Shown: piece by piece, positions 8,204 to 19,083 of the stretch | Position numbering within the stretch: the stretch's first letter is position 1 | Layout: the number at the start of each line of letters is the position of its first letter | Source: Acidimicrobiaceae bacterium | GTDB taxonomy: Bacteria; Actinomycetota; Acidimicrobiia; Acidimicrobiales; UBA8190 | NCBI GenBank assembly: GCA_003151955.1 | Contig: PLZB01000035.1 | Coordinates: forward strand, 1,399 to 65,398 | DNA: 64,000 nucleotides | Direction of reading: 5' to 3' | Notes under the pieces: model-generated | Databases searched by the model: none | Seen by the model: only the letters and a program-made list of their open reading frames with translations | Told to the model about the DNA's origin: nothing | Made by a program: the position numbers and the translations under genes

Positions 8204-10831
8204 GTGACCGACACCCTCCCCGCTGACGCCTCCGCCGCCCACCGGCTCCCCTACACGCTGACCCCCGTCCGCTACGACCTCCACCTCGCCCCCGACCTGG
8301 AGGCGGCCACCTTCACCGGGAAGGTCTCCATCGAGGCCGAGGTCCACGAGGCGGTCAGCGAGATCGTCCTCAACGCCGCCGAGCTCACGATCGGGTCGGT
8401 GACGGTCGAGGCCGGGGGGACGACCCTGGCCGCCACCGCCACCTCCGACGAGGAAACCGAGCGGGTCACCCTGGCCCTCGACGGGGAGCTCCCCCCCGGA
8501 CCCTGCCGGATCCACCTCGACTTCGCCGGGATCCTCAACGACCACCTCCACGGCTTCTACCGGTCGACCTTCACCGACACCGAGGGCGCCACCCGGACCA
8601 TCGCCACGACGCAGTTCGAGGCCACCGACGCCCGCCGGGCCTTCCCCTGCTTCGACGAGCCCGACCGCAAGGCCGTCTTCGCCGTCACCCTCGACGTCCC
8701 CGCCGGGCTGGCCGCCTACTCGAACGGCCCCCAGACCGGGGAGGAACCCATCGAGGGAGGGGCCCGCCGGGTGACCTTCGGGGAGACCATCCCCATGTCC
8801 ACCTACCTGGTGGCCTTCGTGGTCGGCCCCCTCGAGGCCACCGACCCCGTCGACGTCGACGGGACCGCCGTCCGGGTCGTCCACGTGCCGGGCAAGGACG
8901 GCCTCACCGACTTCGCCGTCGACTGCGCCGCCCACGCCCTCCGGTTCTTCACCGACTGGTTCGGGATCCCCTATCCGGCCGAGAAGCTCGACCTGGTCGC
9001 CATCCCCGACTTCGCCTTCGGGGCCATGGAGAACCTGGGCTGTGTCACCTTCCGGGAGACCGCCCTCCTCGTCGACCCGGCCCGGTCCTCCCGGCTCGAG
9101 CAGGAACGGGTCGCCGACGTCATCTCCCACGAGATCGCCCACATGTGGTTCGGGGACCTCGTCACCATGAAGTGGTGGACGGGGATCTGGCTCAACGAGG
9201 CCTTCGCCACCTTGATGGAGCTCCTCTGCGTCGACCACTACCGTCCGGACTGGCAGCGCTGGGTCTCCTTCGGGATGGAGCGGGACGTGGCCATGGCCAC
9301 CGATTCCCTCCACCGGACCCGGCCCGTCGAGTACCCCGTCGGGCCCCCGGAGGAGGCCCAGGGGATGTTCGACGTCCTCACCTACCAGAAGGGGGCCAGC
9401 GTCCTGCGGATGCTCGAGCGCTACCTCGGCCCCGAGGCCTTCCGGGCCGGCATCCGCCGCTACCTCGACACCCACCGCTACGGCAACACCGAGACCTCCG
9501 ACCTCTGGGACGCCATCGAGGCCGCCAGCGGGGAGCCCGTCCGGGACATCATGGACACCTGGATCCTCCAGGGGGGCTTCCCCCTCGTCCACGCCGAGAC
9601 TCCCGAGGACGACCCCGACCACGACGCCGACGGCAGCGGCAGTGACAGCGGGGCCGTCCTCGAGCTGACCCAGGAGCCCTTCACCCTCGGGCCCCCCGAC
9701 GGGGAGAGCGCCATCGGGTCGCACTGGCGGATCCCCGTCCTGGCCCGGTCCCTCGCCTCCGAGGGGGAGACCAAGGTCCTCCTCGACCGGGCCGCCCTCG
9801 TCGACCTCGGCTCCGGGCCCGTCGTCGTGAACGCCGGGGGGGCCGGCTTCTTCCGGGTGGCCTACTCCGCCGACCACCTCCGCCACCTGGCCACCGCCCT
9901 CGACCGGCTCGATCCCCTGGAGCGGTTCAACCTCCTCGGGGACACCTGGACGGCCTTCATCGCCGAGCGGGCCGACCTGGCCGACTTCCTGGTCCTCGTC
10001 GAGGGGCTCGGCAACGAGGGAGACCCGAACGTCTGGGCCCAGGCCACCGGGGCCCTCGGCTTCCTGGACCGGGCCGTCGACGACGATGCCCTCGAGGCCC
10101 TGGCCGGCTACACCCGGGCCCTCCTCCGGCCCGTCCACGACCGCCTGGGCTGGGAGGCGGCTCCGGGCGAGGGGGAACGGACGGCCACCCTCAGGGCCCA
10201 GGTCCTCGGGGCCCTCGGGACCGTTGGCCAGGACGAGGCCGTCCGGTTCGAGGCCGCCAGCCGCCACGCCGCCGCCCTCGAGGGGACCGCCCCCCTCGAC
10301 CCCGACCTGGCCTCCGCCGTCGTCGGGATCGTCGCTTCCGCTGGATCAGAGGCTGAGTACGAGGCCTTCCTCGACCGCTACCGCCACCCGGCCACCCCCC
10401 AGGAGGAGATGCGCTACCTCACGGCCCTGGCCGCCTTCGGTGACCCCGGCCTGGCGGCGAGGACCTTCGACCTGGCCGTCGGCGAGGTCCGGTCCCAGAA
10501 CGCCCCCTTCCTGGTCCAGGCCCTCCTCACCAACCGCACCAACGGCCCGGCCGCCTGGGACCGGGTCGTCGACCACTGGGACACCCTGGTGGACCGGACA
10601 CCGGCCAACATCCTCCCCCGGATGCTCGACGGGGTGAAGCTCCTCTGCCGCCACCCGGCCCTGGCCGCGGCCGTGGCGGCCTTCGTCGCCGACCACCCCC
10701 TCCCCACCGGCCAGCGCACCGTCGACCAGGCCGTCGAGCGGCTCTTCGTCAACGTCGGCGTGGCCGGCCGGCTCCGTCCCAGCGTGGCCGACGACCTGAC
10801 GGCGGGAGTGGACCGGCTGTCCTGGGGCTGA
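8204..10831 (+). CDS. pepN: M1-family metalloaminopeptidase (PepN-like)
   Basis: A zinc aminopeptidase that removes N-terminal residues from peptides in the cytosol. The 875-residue protein shows the exopeptidase motif GAMENLG (about residue 273) and the zinc site HEIAHMWFGDLVTMKWWTG beginning at His309, with the third ligand in WLNEAFA. A catalytic Tyr region (LTYQKGASVLRMLE) and a long helical C-terminal half match the ERAP/puromycin-sensitive branch. Around residues 467-480 is an acidic insertion (DDPDHDADGSGSD). The GTG start at 8204 fits the conserved N-terminal sheet (LTPVRYDLHL). Confidence 0.94.
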   Translation: MTDTLPADASAAHRLPYTLTPVRYDLHLAPDLEAATFTGKVSIEAEVHEAVSEIVLNAAELTIGSVTVEAGGTTLAATATSDEETERVTLALDGELPPGPCRIHLDFAGILNDHLHGFYRSTFTDTEGATRTIATTQFEATDARRAFPCFDEPDRKAVFAVTLDVPAGLAAYSNGPQTGEEPIEGGARRVTFGETIPMSTYLVAFVVGPLEATDPVDVDGTAVRVVHVPGKDGLTDFAVDCAAHALRFFTDWFGIPYPAEKLDLVAIPDFAFGAMENLGCVTFRETALLVDPARSSRLEQERVADVISHEIAHMWFGDLVTMKWWTGIWLNEAFATLMELLCVDHYRPDWQRWVSFGMERDVAMATDSLHRTRPVEYPVGPPEEAQGMFDVLTYQKGASVLRMLERYLGPEAFRAGIRRYLDTHRYGNTETSDLWDAIEAASGEPVRDIMDTWILQGGFPLVHAETPEDDPDHDADGSGSDSGAVLELTQEPFTLGPPDGESAIGSHWRIPVLARSLASEGETKVLLDRAALVDLGSGPVVVNAGGAGFFRVAYSADHLRHLATALDRLDPLERFNLLGDTWTAFIAERADLADFLVLVEGLGNEGDPNVWAQATGALGFLDRAVDDDALEALAGYTRALLRPVHDRLGWEAAPGEGERTATLRAQVLGALGTVGQDEAVRFEAASRHAAALEGTAPLDPDLASAVVGIVASAGSEAEYEAFLDRYRHPATPQEEMRYLTALAAFGDPGLAARTFDLAVGEVRSQNAPFLVQALLTNRTNGPAAWDRVVDHWDTLVDRTPANILPRMLDGVKLLCRHPALAAAVAAFVADHPLPTGQRTVDQAVERLFVNVGVAGRLRPSVADDLTAGVDRLSWG

Positions 10832-10936
10832 ACCGGGCCGACCCTCGATCCGGGCCCCGTGAACTGGCAGACTGACTCGTCGGTTGAATCAGAGAGGCCC
10901 GGACCGGGCCGACGAACGGCCCGAGGGGGGGACGCC

Positions 10937-12748
10937 GTGGAGGAGGACAAGGACGTCGGTGCCGACGCGGCCGACCCGGCCGACCTCCCGGCCCGGTTGG
11001 CCGCCACCGAGGAGGCGCTGCGCCTGGCCCGGTCCCGGAACCTCCGGACCTTCCTCCTGACCCGGACCGTCATCATCATCGTCGCCGACGGGCGACTGGT
11101 CGAGGTCAACCCGGCCGCCGTCGCCCTCCTCGGCTACCCCGACGCCGAGACCCTGGTCGGGACACCCTTCGAGGAGATCCTCCATCCCGAGGACCGGGCC
11201 AGGACACTGGCCTGGCTGGGCCACCCCGGCCCCGAGGACGACCGGTCCGAACCCCTCGAGATCCGCCTCGTCGGCCTCGACGGCCGGCTCGTCGACATCG
11301 AGCTCCTGGCCCTCGGGATCCGCCACCAGGGGGAGGTCGTCATCCAGCTCCTCGTCTACGACATCACCGAGCGGAAGCACGCCGTCGAGTCACTCACCTA
11401 CCAGGCCCTCCACGACGCCCTGACCGGCCTCCCCAACCGGCTCCTCTTCCTCGACCGGGTCCGCCAGGCCCTGGCCCGGATGGGCCGGGCCGGCACCCGG
11501 GCCGCCGTCTTCCTCTGCGACCTCGACCGGTTCGAGGTGGTGAACGACTCCCTCGGCCACCGGGCCGGCGACGAGCTCCTCGTCCACGCCGCGGCCCGGC
11601 TCCGCAACGCCCTGCGCCCCTCCGACACCGTGGCCCGCTTCGCCGGCGACGTCTTCGTCATGCTCTGCGAGGTCTCCCCCGAGCCGGGCGACACCGTCGT
11701 CGTGGCCCGGCGCCTCCTGGCCGCCATCTCCCAGCCCGCCTTCGTCGACGACCAGCCCTTCTCCTTCACCGCCTCGATGGGGGTCGCCGTCGCCACCGGC
11801 CGGCTGACCGACCCCGAGGACCTCATCCGCGACGCCGCCGCCGCCATGACCCAGGCCAAGAACCGGGGCCGGGGCCGTTTCGAGCTCTTCGACGAGTCGA
11901 CCCGGGCCAAGGCCATCGGACGGATGCAGATCGAGACGGCCCTGCGCCAGGCGATGGACCTCGACGAGCTCCGGGTCTACTACCAGCCCATCCTGACCTG
12001 CCCCGGCGGGGAGCTCGTCGGCATGGAGGCCCTGGTCCGCTGGCAGCACCCCCAGCACGGCTTCCTCCTCCCCGGCTCCTTCATCCCCGTGGCCGAGGAC
12101 TCCGGCCTCATCGTGGCCCTCGGGAACTGGGTTCTCGAGGAGACCTGCCGCCAGGCCAACGACTGGGAGATCCTCCTCCCCGAGGACCGTCCCATCTACC
12201 TCTCCGTCAACCTCTCGGCCCACCAGCTCCACGACCCCGGCCTGGTCGAGCGGGTCCGGGACACGCTCATCCCCCCCGGGGGTGGTCCCCGCAAGGTCGT
12301 CCTCTCCCTCGAGGTCACCGAGACCACCCTCGTCCGCGACACCGAGCAGACCGTCGAGGTCCTCGAGCGACTCGACGACCTCGGCATCCGGATCGGGATC
12401 GACGACTTCGGGACCGGCTACTCCTCGCTCAGCTACCTGAAGCGGTTCCCCGTCACCTCCATCAAGATCGACCAGTCCTTCATCGTCGGCGTCGACACCG
12501 ACCCCGACGACCGGGCCATCGTCAACGCCGTCATCCAGCTGGCCCACAACCTCGGGCTCCTGGTGGTGGCCGAGGGGGTGGAGCGCCCCGAGCAGTTCGC
12601 CGCCCTCCACCAGATGGGCTGCGACCTCGTCCAGGGCTTCCTCTTCGGCCGGCCCCTCCCCGCCGAGGCCATGACCGCCCTTCTGACCGGCACCTCCGGC
12701 CCGATTACCCTGGCCCCCGACGCCGGCGCCCCCGCCCCGTCCGCCTGA
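10937..12748 (+). CDS. PAS-GGDEF-EAL protein with degenerate GGDEF site; probable c-di-GMP phosphodiesterase
   Basis: GTG at 10937 follows a very strong GAGGGGGGG Shine-Dalgarno run. Layout: a PAS sensor (about residues 40-150, with [17 protein letters not shown]), a GGDEF domain, then EAL. In GGDEF the signature reads AGDVF at residues 236-240, so the catalytic Glu is Val; the upstream [12 protein letters not shown] is kept. EAL looks intact: MEALVRW with Glu364, [35 protein letters not shown] and AEGVERPEQ. Expected role: a soluble c-di-GMP-hydrolysing enzyme, with the dead GGDEF perhaps binding GTP as an effector. No membrane segment is present. Confidence 0.9.
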
Positions 12749-16144: not shown

Positions 16145-17794
16145 ATGGGCATGCACATGACTGGCAACAGCGGCCTCTGGAGCGTGCCTGGAGAGCACCT
16201 GCCCGGGCTGATCGCCCTGCTCCTCTTCCCGTTGCTGGCCTGGGCCGCCCTCCTGGCTCTCCGGGCCGGGAGCCGTCACGGGCTCCGGCTGGCCACCGCC
16301 CTGGAGGGCCGCCTGTCCGCCACCCCCTTCGCCGGGAAGGTGGCCCTGACGGTCATGCTCCTCGGAGCCGCCGTCCACGCCGCCATCGTCCCCACCCACT
16401 GGGGGAACTCGAGGCCGCTCGCCATCCTCTTCGTCCTGGATGTCCTCGGGTTCCTGGCCACCTCGGCCTGGCTCGTGGCCGGCTGCCCGGGCTGGCGCCT
16501 GGGAGCCATGGCCATGCTTGGGGGGACCTTCGCCGGCTACACCCTCTACCTCCTGAAGGGCTGGGAGACCGCCGATGTCGTGGGGCTCACCGTCACCTCC
16601 CTGGAGTTGGCCGGCGTCCTCGTCCTCCTCGTCCCCGAGGGCACCACGGTGGCGGCCTGGCGGAAGGGCCGGCTCCTGGCCACCGCCCTGCCCATGGCTG
16701 TCGTCGTCCTGATCGGGACCGCGGTCGTGGCCGCCGCCGTGGTCCCCCCGACCGCCCCCGGTTCCACCGGGTCGACCTCGAACGCCTCGGCCATGCGGTC
16801 GATGCCGTCGGCATCGGGGTCGATGGCCCCCATGACGGGGACTTCGTCCACGGTGGCCGGCAGCTCGATGTCGAACATGGGTGGCCCCGACACGACGATG
16901 CCCGGCGCCATGGCCATGGGTGGCGTCAGCGGGTCGACCACCACCATGCCCGGCGGGATGGCCATGGGCGCGGCGGGGAGCACGACGACGATGCCTCCGA
17001 TGGGCGGGGGCGGGTCAGGCCCGACGACCACCATGGGAGCCATGCCCATGGGTGGGGGCAGCACCACGACCATGCCCGCGATGGGCGGCGGCGGGTCGAC
17101 CACCACCACCATGCCCGGCATGGGCGGGGGCGGCTCCGGGGGCCCGCTCTCCCTGGCCACCACCTCCCCGGCCGGACCGATCACCTGGCCCATGACCATG
17201 GGGGCCATGGAGCCCGGGATGGCCATGGCCACTCCCAACTGCACCACCGACCCCACCACGGCCCAACAGCAAGCGGCCGTGACCCTGGTCGACCAGACGG
17301 TGACTGGCTTGGCCCGCTATCAGAGCCTGGCCAACGCCAAGTCCGACGGCTACGTGCCCATCACCCCAACGGGCGCCCAGGTGGTCCACTACGTGAAGGT
17401 CTCGTTCCTGGCCGACAATTTCCTCGTCAACCCAGCCGCGATCGAGTCCCTCGTCTACGCCAACACCCCCCAGGGGGCCATCCTGGTGGCCGCCATGTAC
17501 CTCATGAACCTCGACCAGGTCGGCGTCACCCCGCCCATGCCCGGAGGGTGCCTCACCGAGTGGCACATCCATACCAACCTCTGCTTCTCGGACGCCAACG
17601 GCGCCGTCGTGGGCGAGACCCACGCCGACGGGACCTGCAACGCCGGGTCCTCGAACCACGTGACCGAGCCCATGCTCCACATCTGGCTGGCTCCGGTTCC
17701 CGGGGGTCCCCTCACCGTGGACGCCTCGAACTCCCAGGTCGTCCAGGCCGCCGAGCAGCTCCCGGTCCCCAGCCCGGCCAACGCAGCGGCCTGA
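16145..17794 (+). CDS. Six-helix membrane protein with methionine-rich repeats and an extracytoplasmic His/Cys domain
   Basis: Residues 1-200 hold about six hydrophobic helices (for example GLIALLLFPLLAWAALLAL, VALTVMLLGAAVHAAIV). Residues about 215-360 are low complexity: repeats of the type STTTMPGGMAMG and TTTMPAMGGGG, very rich in Met, Gly and Thr. The C-terminal domain (about 365-549) contains Cys469, His474, His476 and Cys480 in CLTEWHIHTNLCF, plus VVHYVK and HVTEPMLHIW. Met-rich stretches with HxH and Cys ligands are typical of copper-handling proteins, so an envelope copper-binding role is a reasonable inference, but no family match is certain. A TTGACC box lies at 16083 and GGGGGGAGA precedes the ATG. 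Confidence 0.7.
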   Translation: MGMHMTGNSGLWSVPGEHLPGLIALLLFPLLAWAALLALRAGSRHGLRLATALEGRLSATPFAGKVALTVMLLGAAVHAAIVPTHWGNSRPLAILFVLDVLGFLATSAWLVAGCPGWRLGAMAMLGGTFAGYTLYLLKGWETADVVGLTVTSLELAGVLVLLVPEGTTVAAWRKGRLLATALPMAVVVLIGTAVVAAAVVPPTAPGSTGSTSNASAMRSMPSASGSMAPMTGTSSTVAGSSMSNMGGPDTTMPGAMAMGGVSGSTTTMPGGMAMGAAGSTTTMPPMGGGGSGPTTTMGAMPMGGGSTTTMPAMGGGGSTTTTMPGMGGGGSGGPLSLATTSPAGPITWPMTMGAMEPGMAMATPNCTTDPTTAQQQAAVTLVDQTVTGLARYQSLANAKSDGYVPITPTGAQVVHYVKVSFLADNFLVNPAAIESLVYANTPQGAILVAAMYLMNLDQVGVTPPMPGGCLTEWHIHTNLCFSDANGAVVGETHADGTCNAGSSNHVTEPMLHIWLAPVPGGPLTVDASNSQVVQAAEQLPVPSPANAAA

Positions 17795-17809: not shown

Positions 17810-18862
17810 TCAGTCCCGGTCGTCCCGGCGGTCCCGCTTCTGGGCCCGCTGACGGCGTTGGGCCACGTTGGCGTCCTTGCGCCGGGCCGCCTCGGCGTCG
17901 TCCCGGTCCCGCCGCCGGCCGGCCACGTCCTCGAGCTCCCGGGTGAGGGCCCGCCAGCTGGAGAACCGGGCCGGATCGAGGGTTCCGTCGGCCAGGGCGG
18001 CCCGGAGGGCGCAGCCTGGCTCGGTCTCGTGGGCACAGTCGGAGAACCGGCAGGACCCGGCCAGCGCCTCCACGTCCGGGAAGGTCTGGGCCAAACCCTC
18101 CTCGGCGTCCCAGAGACCCAGTCCCCGCATCCCCGGGGTGTCGAGGAGGAGCCCCCGACCCGGGAGGAGGACGAGCTCCCGGTGGGTGGTGGTGTGCCGG
18201 CCCCTGGTGTCGCTGCGGACCTCCCCAGTGGCCATGACCTCGGCCCCGGCCAGCCGGTTGACCAGGGTCGACTTCCCCACCCCCGACGGTCCGATGAGGG
18301 CCATGGTCCGGCCGGGCCGGAGGTGGCCGGCGACCAGCTCGTCGAGGCCCTCGCCGGTCCGGGCACTCAACAGGTGGACGGCGGCCTCCCCGGCCAGCCC
18401 GACCGCATCGGCCCGGGCCGCGGCCCGCTCGTCGTCCGAGCAGCCGTCAGCCTTGGTCAGGACGACCACCGGGACAGCTCCGCTCTGCCAAGCCAGCGCC
18501 AGGGAGCGCTCGAGCCGCCGGGGATTTACGGGGCTGTCGAGCCCGACCACGATCAGGACGGTGTCGACGTTGGCCGCCACCACCTGCTCGGTCGCCTCCA
18601 GGCCGGCCCGCTTCCGGAGGAAGGCGCTCCGGCGGGGCAGGACCAGCCGGACCACGGGCCGGTCCCCGCTCTGGTCCCCGGGCCCGACCACCACCCAGTC
18701 CCCCACCGCCACCGGCCCGGCCGTGGCCACCCGGTGGGGCTCCGGTCCGAGGACGGTGCAGACGGCCCGGTCGACCCGGGCCACCCGGCCAGGACTGGTC
18801 CCGGGCCGGTCCACCACCTCGAAAGCAGCCCGCCAGCCGTCGTCCCAGCCCAGCTCGACCAT
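17810..18862 (-). CDS. rsgA: Ribosome small subunit-dependent GTPase RsgA
   Basis: Circularly permuted GTPase that acts in late 30S maturation. After an N-terminal OB-type domain come the permuted motifs: VVLTKADGC (G4), SARTGEGLDEL (G5), IGPSGVGKSTLVNRL (G1), the TRGRHTTTHRE G2 switch and LLDTPGMRGLGLW (G3). The zinc-binding part GSCRFSDCAHETEPGCAL is C-terminal, followed by a basic tail (RRRDRDD, RRQRAQKRDRRD). ATG 18862 gives 350 residues; a TTG at 18898 is a possible longer start. Confidence 0.93.
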   Translation of the reverse strand: MVELGWDDGWRAAFEVVDRPGTSPGRVARVDRAVCTVLGPEPHRVATAGPVAVGDWVVVGPGDQSGDRPVVRLVLPRRSAFLRKRAGLEATEQVVAANVDTVLIVVGLDSPVNPRRLERSLALAWQSGAVPVVVLTKADGCSDDERAAARADAVGLAGEAAVHLLSARTGEGLDELVAGHLRPGRTMALIGPSGVGKSTLVNRLAGAEVMATGEVRSDTRGRHTTTHRELVLLPGRGLLLDTPGMRGLGLWDAEEGLAQTFPDVEALAGSCRFSDCAHETEPGCALRAALADGTLDPARFSSWRALTRELEDVAGRRRDRDDAEAARRKDANVAQRRQRAQKRDRRDDRD

Positions 18863-19083
18863 GGCGGTCTCTCGGGTCGCAGCGTCTGAATCCGACAAGG
18901 TGCCTCACGGTTCCCCGGCTCGGGGCCGGTCACAACGACGGGCACCGGGTCTCGACACGGCTGGGGTCCGGGCCCGGCCGGGCCGCCCCGGCGCCGCCCT
19001 AACCCTAGCGACCTGACCGGTGCCCGCCCGGCCCGACCGATCCGTCCGCCACGGGGGAACCCCGGTCTGGCATCATCGGGGGA

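Follow-up and report, generated by a model that had tools for sequence, protein, structure and literature searches.

A putative copper-capture protein with a membrane module, a methionine-rich linker and a WHxH...HxW domain in an acidimicrobial genome

The window analyzed here, i.e., the whole stretch of 64,000 nucleotides of acidimicrobial DNA, encodes a 549-aa protein, the C-terminal domain of which belongs to a large undescribed family present mainly in Actinomycetota. We consider it slightly better than an even chance that this is an extracytoplasmic copper-capture protein, its methionine arm feeding a site of four histidines and methionine. According to the proposed mechanism, six helices would anchor the protein with both ends probably outside, while the disordered Met-rich arm would gather Cu(I) loosely and pass it via a conserved Met element to a single site in the C-terminal domain; copper would be held there by H415, H474, H476 and H512 together with M451 and/or M510, in a domain held by two predicted disulfides (C366-C469 and C480-C498), and the role would be that of copper capture, buffering or delivery. 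From computed evidence, namely the family, its confident predicted fold, conservation, covariation of cysteines, linker composition and domain fusions, we infer an extracytoplasmic position of the protein, its binding of a metal, the identity of this metal as copper and the arm-to-domain transfer. The architecture of the protein is as follows:

16145..17794, + strand: whole ORF, 549 aa
16190..16738, + strand: membrane module with six predicted helices (residues 16-198; AlphaFold2 and alignment)
16751..17152, + strand: Met-Gly-Ser-Thr-Pro repeat linker (residues 203-336), varying among relatives
17153..17239, + strand: conserved Met element LATTSPAGPITWPMTMGAMEPGMAMATPN (residues 337-365; 13 subfamily sequences)
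17240..17791, + strand: C-terminal folded domain (residues 366-549) of the unnamed WHxH...HxW family

Gene context, membrane module and Met-rich linker

The ORF begins with an ATG codon, preceded by GGGGGGAGA, and lies between a 168-aa ORF upstream and an opposite-strand ORF downstream, so that it appears to be a stand-alone gene; the scan for promoters and terminators returned zero sites. The convergent downstream ORF (17813-18898, - strand) resembles, as judged by eye, an RsgA-type ribosome GTPase. The tested neighbours included no copper genes, which counts against copper capture, and comparison of the gene neighbourhoods of the relatives, as well as of the short form of the domain described below, revealed neither a conserved partner nor a conserved metabolic neighbour.

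The six helices of the original prediction were reproduced in the AlphaFold2 model of the membrane module (residues 16-44, 62-86, 90-111, 117-137, 145-162 and 176-198), built with 32 relatives at pLDDT 86.7 and pTM 0.79. Since the Arg and Lys residues of the loops are concentrated before helices 2 and 6, location of both protein ends outside is weakly favoured. According to the alignment, H78, H85, G139 and E141 are kept in the relatives. Comparison of the module with PDB structures yielded generic four-helix bundles only, namely BT_0352 (Z 9.5), the copper storage protein Csp (6zif, Z 9.7) and VKOR (4nv5, Z 7.2), and these similarities were not counted as evidence of kinship. The window protein is not a Csp, in which Cys residues line the four-helix bundle, as only one Cys occurs in the module. 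The score to VKOR, a four-helix membrane fold with a redox CxxC, is inside the range of unrelated helical bundles, and the module contains no CxxC.

In other settings the module occurs alone or joined to PAS-GGDEF-EAL. The latter is the case in two relatives, L197 (494-3391, - strand) and L198 (3-2921, - strand), where the fusion points to a possible sensory module, which may act in c-di-GMP signalling. The window protein itself might, by the same token, be a membrane sensor, its module detecting copper captured on the outside, or the redox state there, and signalling inward, as these two fusions and the conservation of H78, H85 and E141 would allow; yet it has no cytoplasmic output domain, and the folded domain occurs without the module in lipoprotein members of the family, so we regard such a function as very improbable.

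The Met-rich repeats noticed in the original prediction are real: 23 of the 150 residues in positions 203-352 are Met (15.3%), versus a mean of 1.8% over 1,333 genes called heuristically from the fetched sequence. At least 10% Met was found in 29% of the family linkers versus ~1% of 186 other low-complexity linkers, the latter set including a few unrecognised family members. Because a DNA tandem array is absent from the linker (none scoring above 36) and the Ser, Thr, Gly and Pro codons differ from one repeat copy to another, these are protein-level repeats. The long Met repeat is not conserved among the subfamily members, which is a further argument against copper capture; what is kept, in 13 subfamily sequences, is the stretch of 29-30 residues adjoining the domain (LxTxSPAG...GMxM), with 4-6 Met in each. 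The linker thus represents a Met/His-rich low-complexity segment beside a folded domain, presumably on the extracytoplasmic side, as in proteins with copper-binding arms.

The C-terminal domain and its candidate metal site

Modelling of the C-terminal domain, proposed originally as a check, gave a confident AlphaFold2 structure (51 sequences, pLDDT 92.9, pTM 0.87), in which a helix at the N-terminus is followed by a mostly beta body. The C-terminal 189 residues had no match in Pfam, NCBIfam or PDB sequences, and searches of the same three collections, in which the whole protein, its domain and profiles served as queries, produced nothing relevant, the weak Pfam matches to DUF7475 and FKS1_dom2 being under their cutoffs. 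Foldseek of the domain against PDB gave no match (best E 0.32) and against viral models gave nothing, while a second-look structure comparison with PDB reached Z 2.8 at best; these results are consistent with an as yet unsolved fold, the absence of a match being no proof of a new one. Neither did the literature search find a description of the WHxH...HxW domain, nor did an assignment to an unrelated enzyme family, named originally as part of a refuting outcome, arise. The original claim that the protein resembles no known family therefore holds as regards curated families, PDB sequence relatives and solved folds. The residues considered further are listed below:

17240..17242, + strand: C366, predicted to form a disulfide with C469 (17549-17551; covariation)
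17387..17389, + strand: H415, candidate metal ligand (His in 120/123 aligned relatives)
17495..17497, + strand: M451, candidate ligand; Glu in the HxH-less short form
17564..17572, + strand: H474-x-H476, candidate metal ligands (invariant in 67 full-length members)
17582..17638, + strand: C480 (17582-17584) and C498 (17636-17638), predicted disulfide pair (covariation)
17672..17680, + strand: M510-x-H512, candidate ligands; H512 kept throughout, M510 in most WHxH members

C480 and C498 are both present in 96 sequences and both missing from three (L112, L114 and L060), with no sequence having a single one; C366 and C469 are both present in 38 and both missing from 60, with one mismatch, the Fisher value on such co-occurrence taking no account of relatedness. 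Because each pair covaries, C366-C469 and C480-C498 are read as disulfides, which argues for location of the domain outside the cytoplasm. Hence, of the putative site originally composed of C469, H474, H476 and C480, all positions were correct and the histidines stand, whereas the two cysteines, covarying with C366 and C498, are probably disulfide members and not ligands; H415, H512, M451 and M510 were added as candidates.

The conserved set of the domain comprises H415, M451, W473, H474, H476, M510, H512 and W514. Among 123 aligned relatives, His at position 512 and Trp at 514 were each found in 122, and His at 474 and 476 in 107 and 108, respectively, the sequences devoid of the pair all being of the short form; the equivalents of H415, W473, H474, H476, H512 and W514 are invariant in the 67 full-length members. 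Position 451 is occupied by Met in 99 relatives, Glu in 16, Ser in six and Ala in two, and all 16 Glu-451 sequences lack the HxH pair, while every sequence with Met, Ser or Ala has it. Such a pattern would fit a single metal sphere, although it also separates clades and so does not represent many independent events. Judging from this conservation, the metal site is likely composed of H415, H474, H476 and H512 with M451 and/or M510.

Distribution of the family and its short form

With the WHxH and HxW motifs and the upstream His (H415), the window protein possesses the family-defining features and fits the family by every feature tested; its domain, itself a row of the family profile, matched that profile with 241 bits (E 1.2e-71) when its own genome was searched. 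A search for the domain in acidimicrobial genomes, also suggested originally, located it in 47 of the 198 genomes of the order. A scan of 84,980 species (one genome each) revealed 76 loci, all in records titled Actinomycetota except for one from Oceanospirillales (L148); this is not a census, since the pattern demanded WHxH. Carriers of the gene include the cultured strains Smaragdicoccus niigatensis DSM 44881 and Aquihabitans sp. G128. By the profile search of the phylum, which includes remote members, 34 of 396 genomes were positive, and the plasmid collection contained no long-form member.

The tree of 70 domains falls into two sides, separated by a branch of 100% SH-aLRT: linkers are His-rich or plain on one side and Met-rich or plain on the other, the latter except for the long-branch His-rich L106 and L125; the linker type changes 10 times on this tree versus 32 in shuffles. 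The linkers of the freshwater clade are low in both Met and His, which also speaks against copper capture. Ten freshwater actinobacterial sequences (L111, L118, L121-L124, L126-L128 and L131), with such Met/His-poor linkers, carry the domain twice per protein. The record of L111 is titled Bifidobacterium breve, while the sequence clusters with freshwater Actinomycetota, and the MAG label is probably wrong.

A short secreted form of ~180 aa is distantly homologous to the domain (hhalign probability 98%, E 1.8e-13) and was found in rhizobia, Limimaricola, Gemmatirosa and haloarchaea, being hypothetical where annotated. It retains H415 (with one exception) and H512, and has Glu at 451 and no HxH; unlike the window protein, the rhizobial, Gemmatirosa and haloarchaeal proteins possess neither C480/C498, nor the Met linker, nor the membrane module. 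As the His/Glu/His set of these homologs is more typical of harder metals, the domain could be supposed to bind Zn, Fe or Mn, the Met linker being only a flexible spacer, all the more so as the Gly-Met-rich tail of GroEL is an example of Met-rich low-complexity sequence serving without metal (PMC11978752). However, Met linkers recur in the clade of the window protein and His linkers in its sister clade, and the short Met element is kept while the rest of the linker varies; we therefore consider this explanation improbable.

Comparison with copper proteins and possible enzymatic function

Disordered His/Met-rich segments of CopI, PcoB and SilE bind copper or silver (PMC13308877, PMC12509749, PMC5008109), the His-rich peptide of CopI binding Cu(II) (PMC13308877). 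The N-terminal regions of these proteins are disordered arms rich in His and Met, as here, and the His-rich linkers of the sister clade resemble the CopI peptide, whereas a counterpart of the folded domain is missing from all three and sequence homology is not claimed. The Met-rich segments of CutO and CueO are likewise extracytoplasmic low-complexity stretches. In Smaragdicoccus niigatensis and a Nocardiaceae MAG, the family is represented by lipobox-bearing lipoproteins with the folded domain, without the membrane module and with MDHGNMDHGNMNHG, which is similar to the Met-rich segment of CutO (PMC8456105); the MDHG-type motifs of the Smaragdicoccus homolog (the MDHGNM-type linker) are like those of this multicopper oxidase. 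Unlike CutO and CueO, the window protein has no multicopper oxidase or Pfam cupredoxin-type domain, and belongs to neither group, its arm being joined to a membrane module and to a domain that is unrelated. The likeness to proteins with Met-rich copper arms would, on this reading, concern mechanism and not descent.

Two remote lipoproteins, L175 and L177, share the WHxH...HxW domain with the window protein and differ from it in having Ser in place of M451, no membrane module, and a C-terminal plastocyanin/azurin domain (PF00127, above the Pfam cutoff). Copper is favoured as the metal because of the Met-rich linkers of the window protein's clade, the His-rich linkers of its sister clade, the MDHGNM-type linker, these plastocyanin-like fusions and the Met positions. 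The original suggestion of an envelope protein that captures copper or has a redox role is thus retained as the best-supported reading in view of the Met/His-rich linkers, plastocyanin-like fusions and invariant histidines, the metal binding itself being putative; the copper reading is plausible, and its basis is now firmer than it was originally.

The same fusions are relevant to another interpretation, namely that the domain has enzymatic activity at a copper or other metal centre, to which the Met arm merely supplies the metal or protects it, capture being secondary. Plastocyanin-like domains are a usual electron-transfer partner, the His set is invariant along with Trp and Gly, and in L201 (1487-3280, G091:C15) the same membrane module and a long Met-rich linker are followed by a different C-terminal domain, which matches PF07712 (SURNod19) just over the cutoff (26.0 versus 25 bits). 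The motifs HHIVLF and GGHLHDGG of this domain are reminiscent of copper monooxygenases of the PHM type. Transcript levels of plant Nod19 track copper supply (PMC3882225). Nevertheless, there is no match of the WHxH...HxW domain to an enzyme family or fold and no conserved metabolic neighbour, and we hold the enzymatic function to be rather unlikely.

If copper capture is the true function, an unannotated family, with candidate ligands named per residue and a confident model for which no solved relative was found, joins the envelope copper handling, and a function would be suggested for many genes of 'hypothetical proteins' in bacteria and haloarchaea; the variants that occur in nature (position 451 being Met, Ser, Ala or Glu, presence or absence of HxH, and Met-rich, His-rich or plain linkers) would then constitute a ready test series for metal choice. 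More tentatively, and with doubts prevailing, the domain may belong to an undescribed metalloprotein superfamily with an unsolved fold, spread over bacteria and archaea, in which the WHxH members are copper transferases or copper enzymes, their partners being Met-rich, His-rich or cupredoxin in kind, and the metal preference shifts with the Met/Glu position and the HxH pair.

Two additional copies of the domain are present in the window's genome, at C66 (G000:C66, 43% identity) and C33 (G000:C33, 31%). The former copy has its own GMSGMSGMAGMAGMAG linker, and the gene after it is a relative (48% over 103 aa with L100) of the membrane module fused to the domain in L078-L105. In this locus (L045, ~9300-12000) the domain and the L078-L105-type module are hence separate genes, being a single gene in L078-L105. 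The DoxX-like identity ascribed by eye to the fused modules of L078-L105 was unsupported by Pfam and the name was dropped. One 6.4-Mb genome of the same order (G143, with L062, L065 and L212-L214) matched the domain six times and the membrane module nine times.
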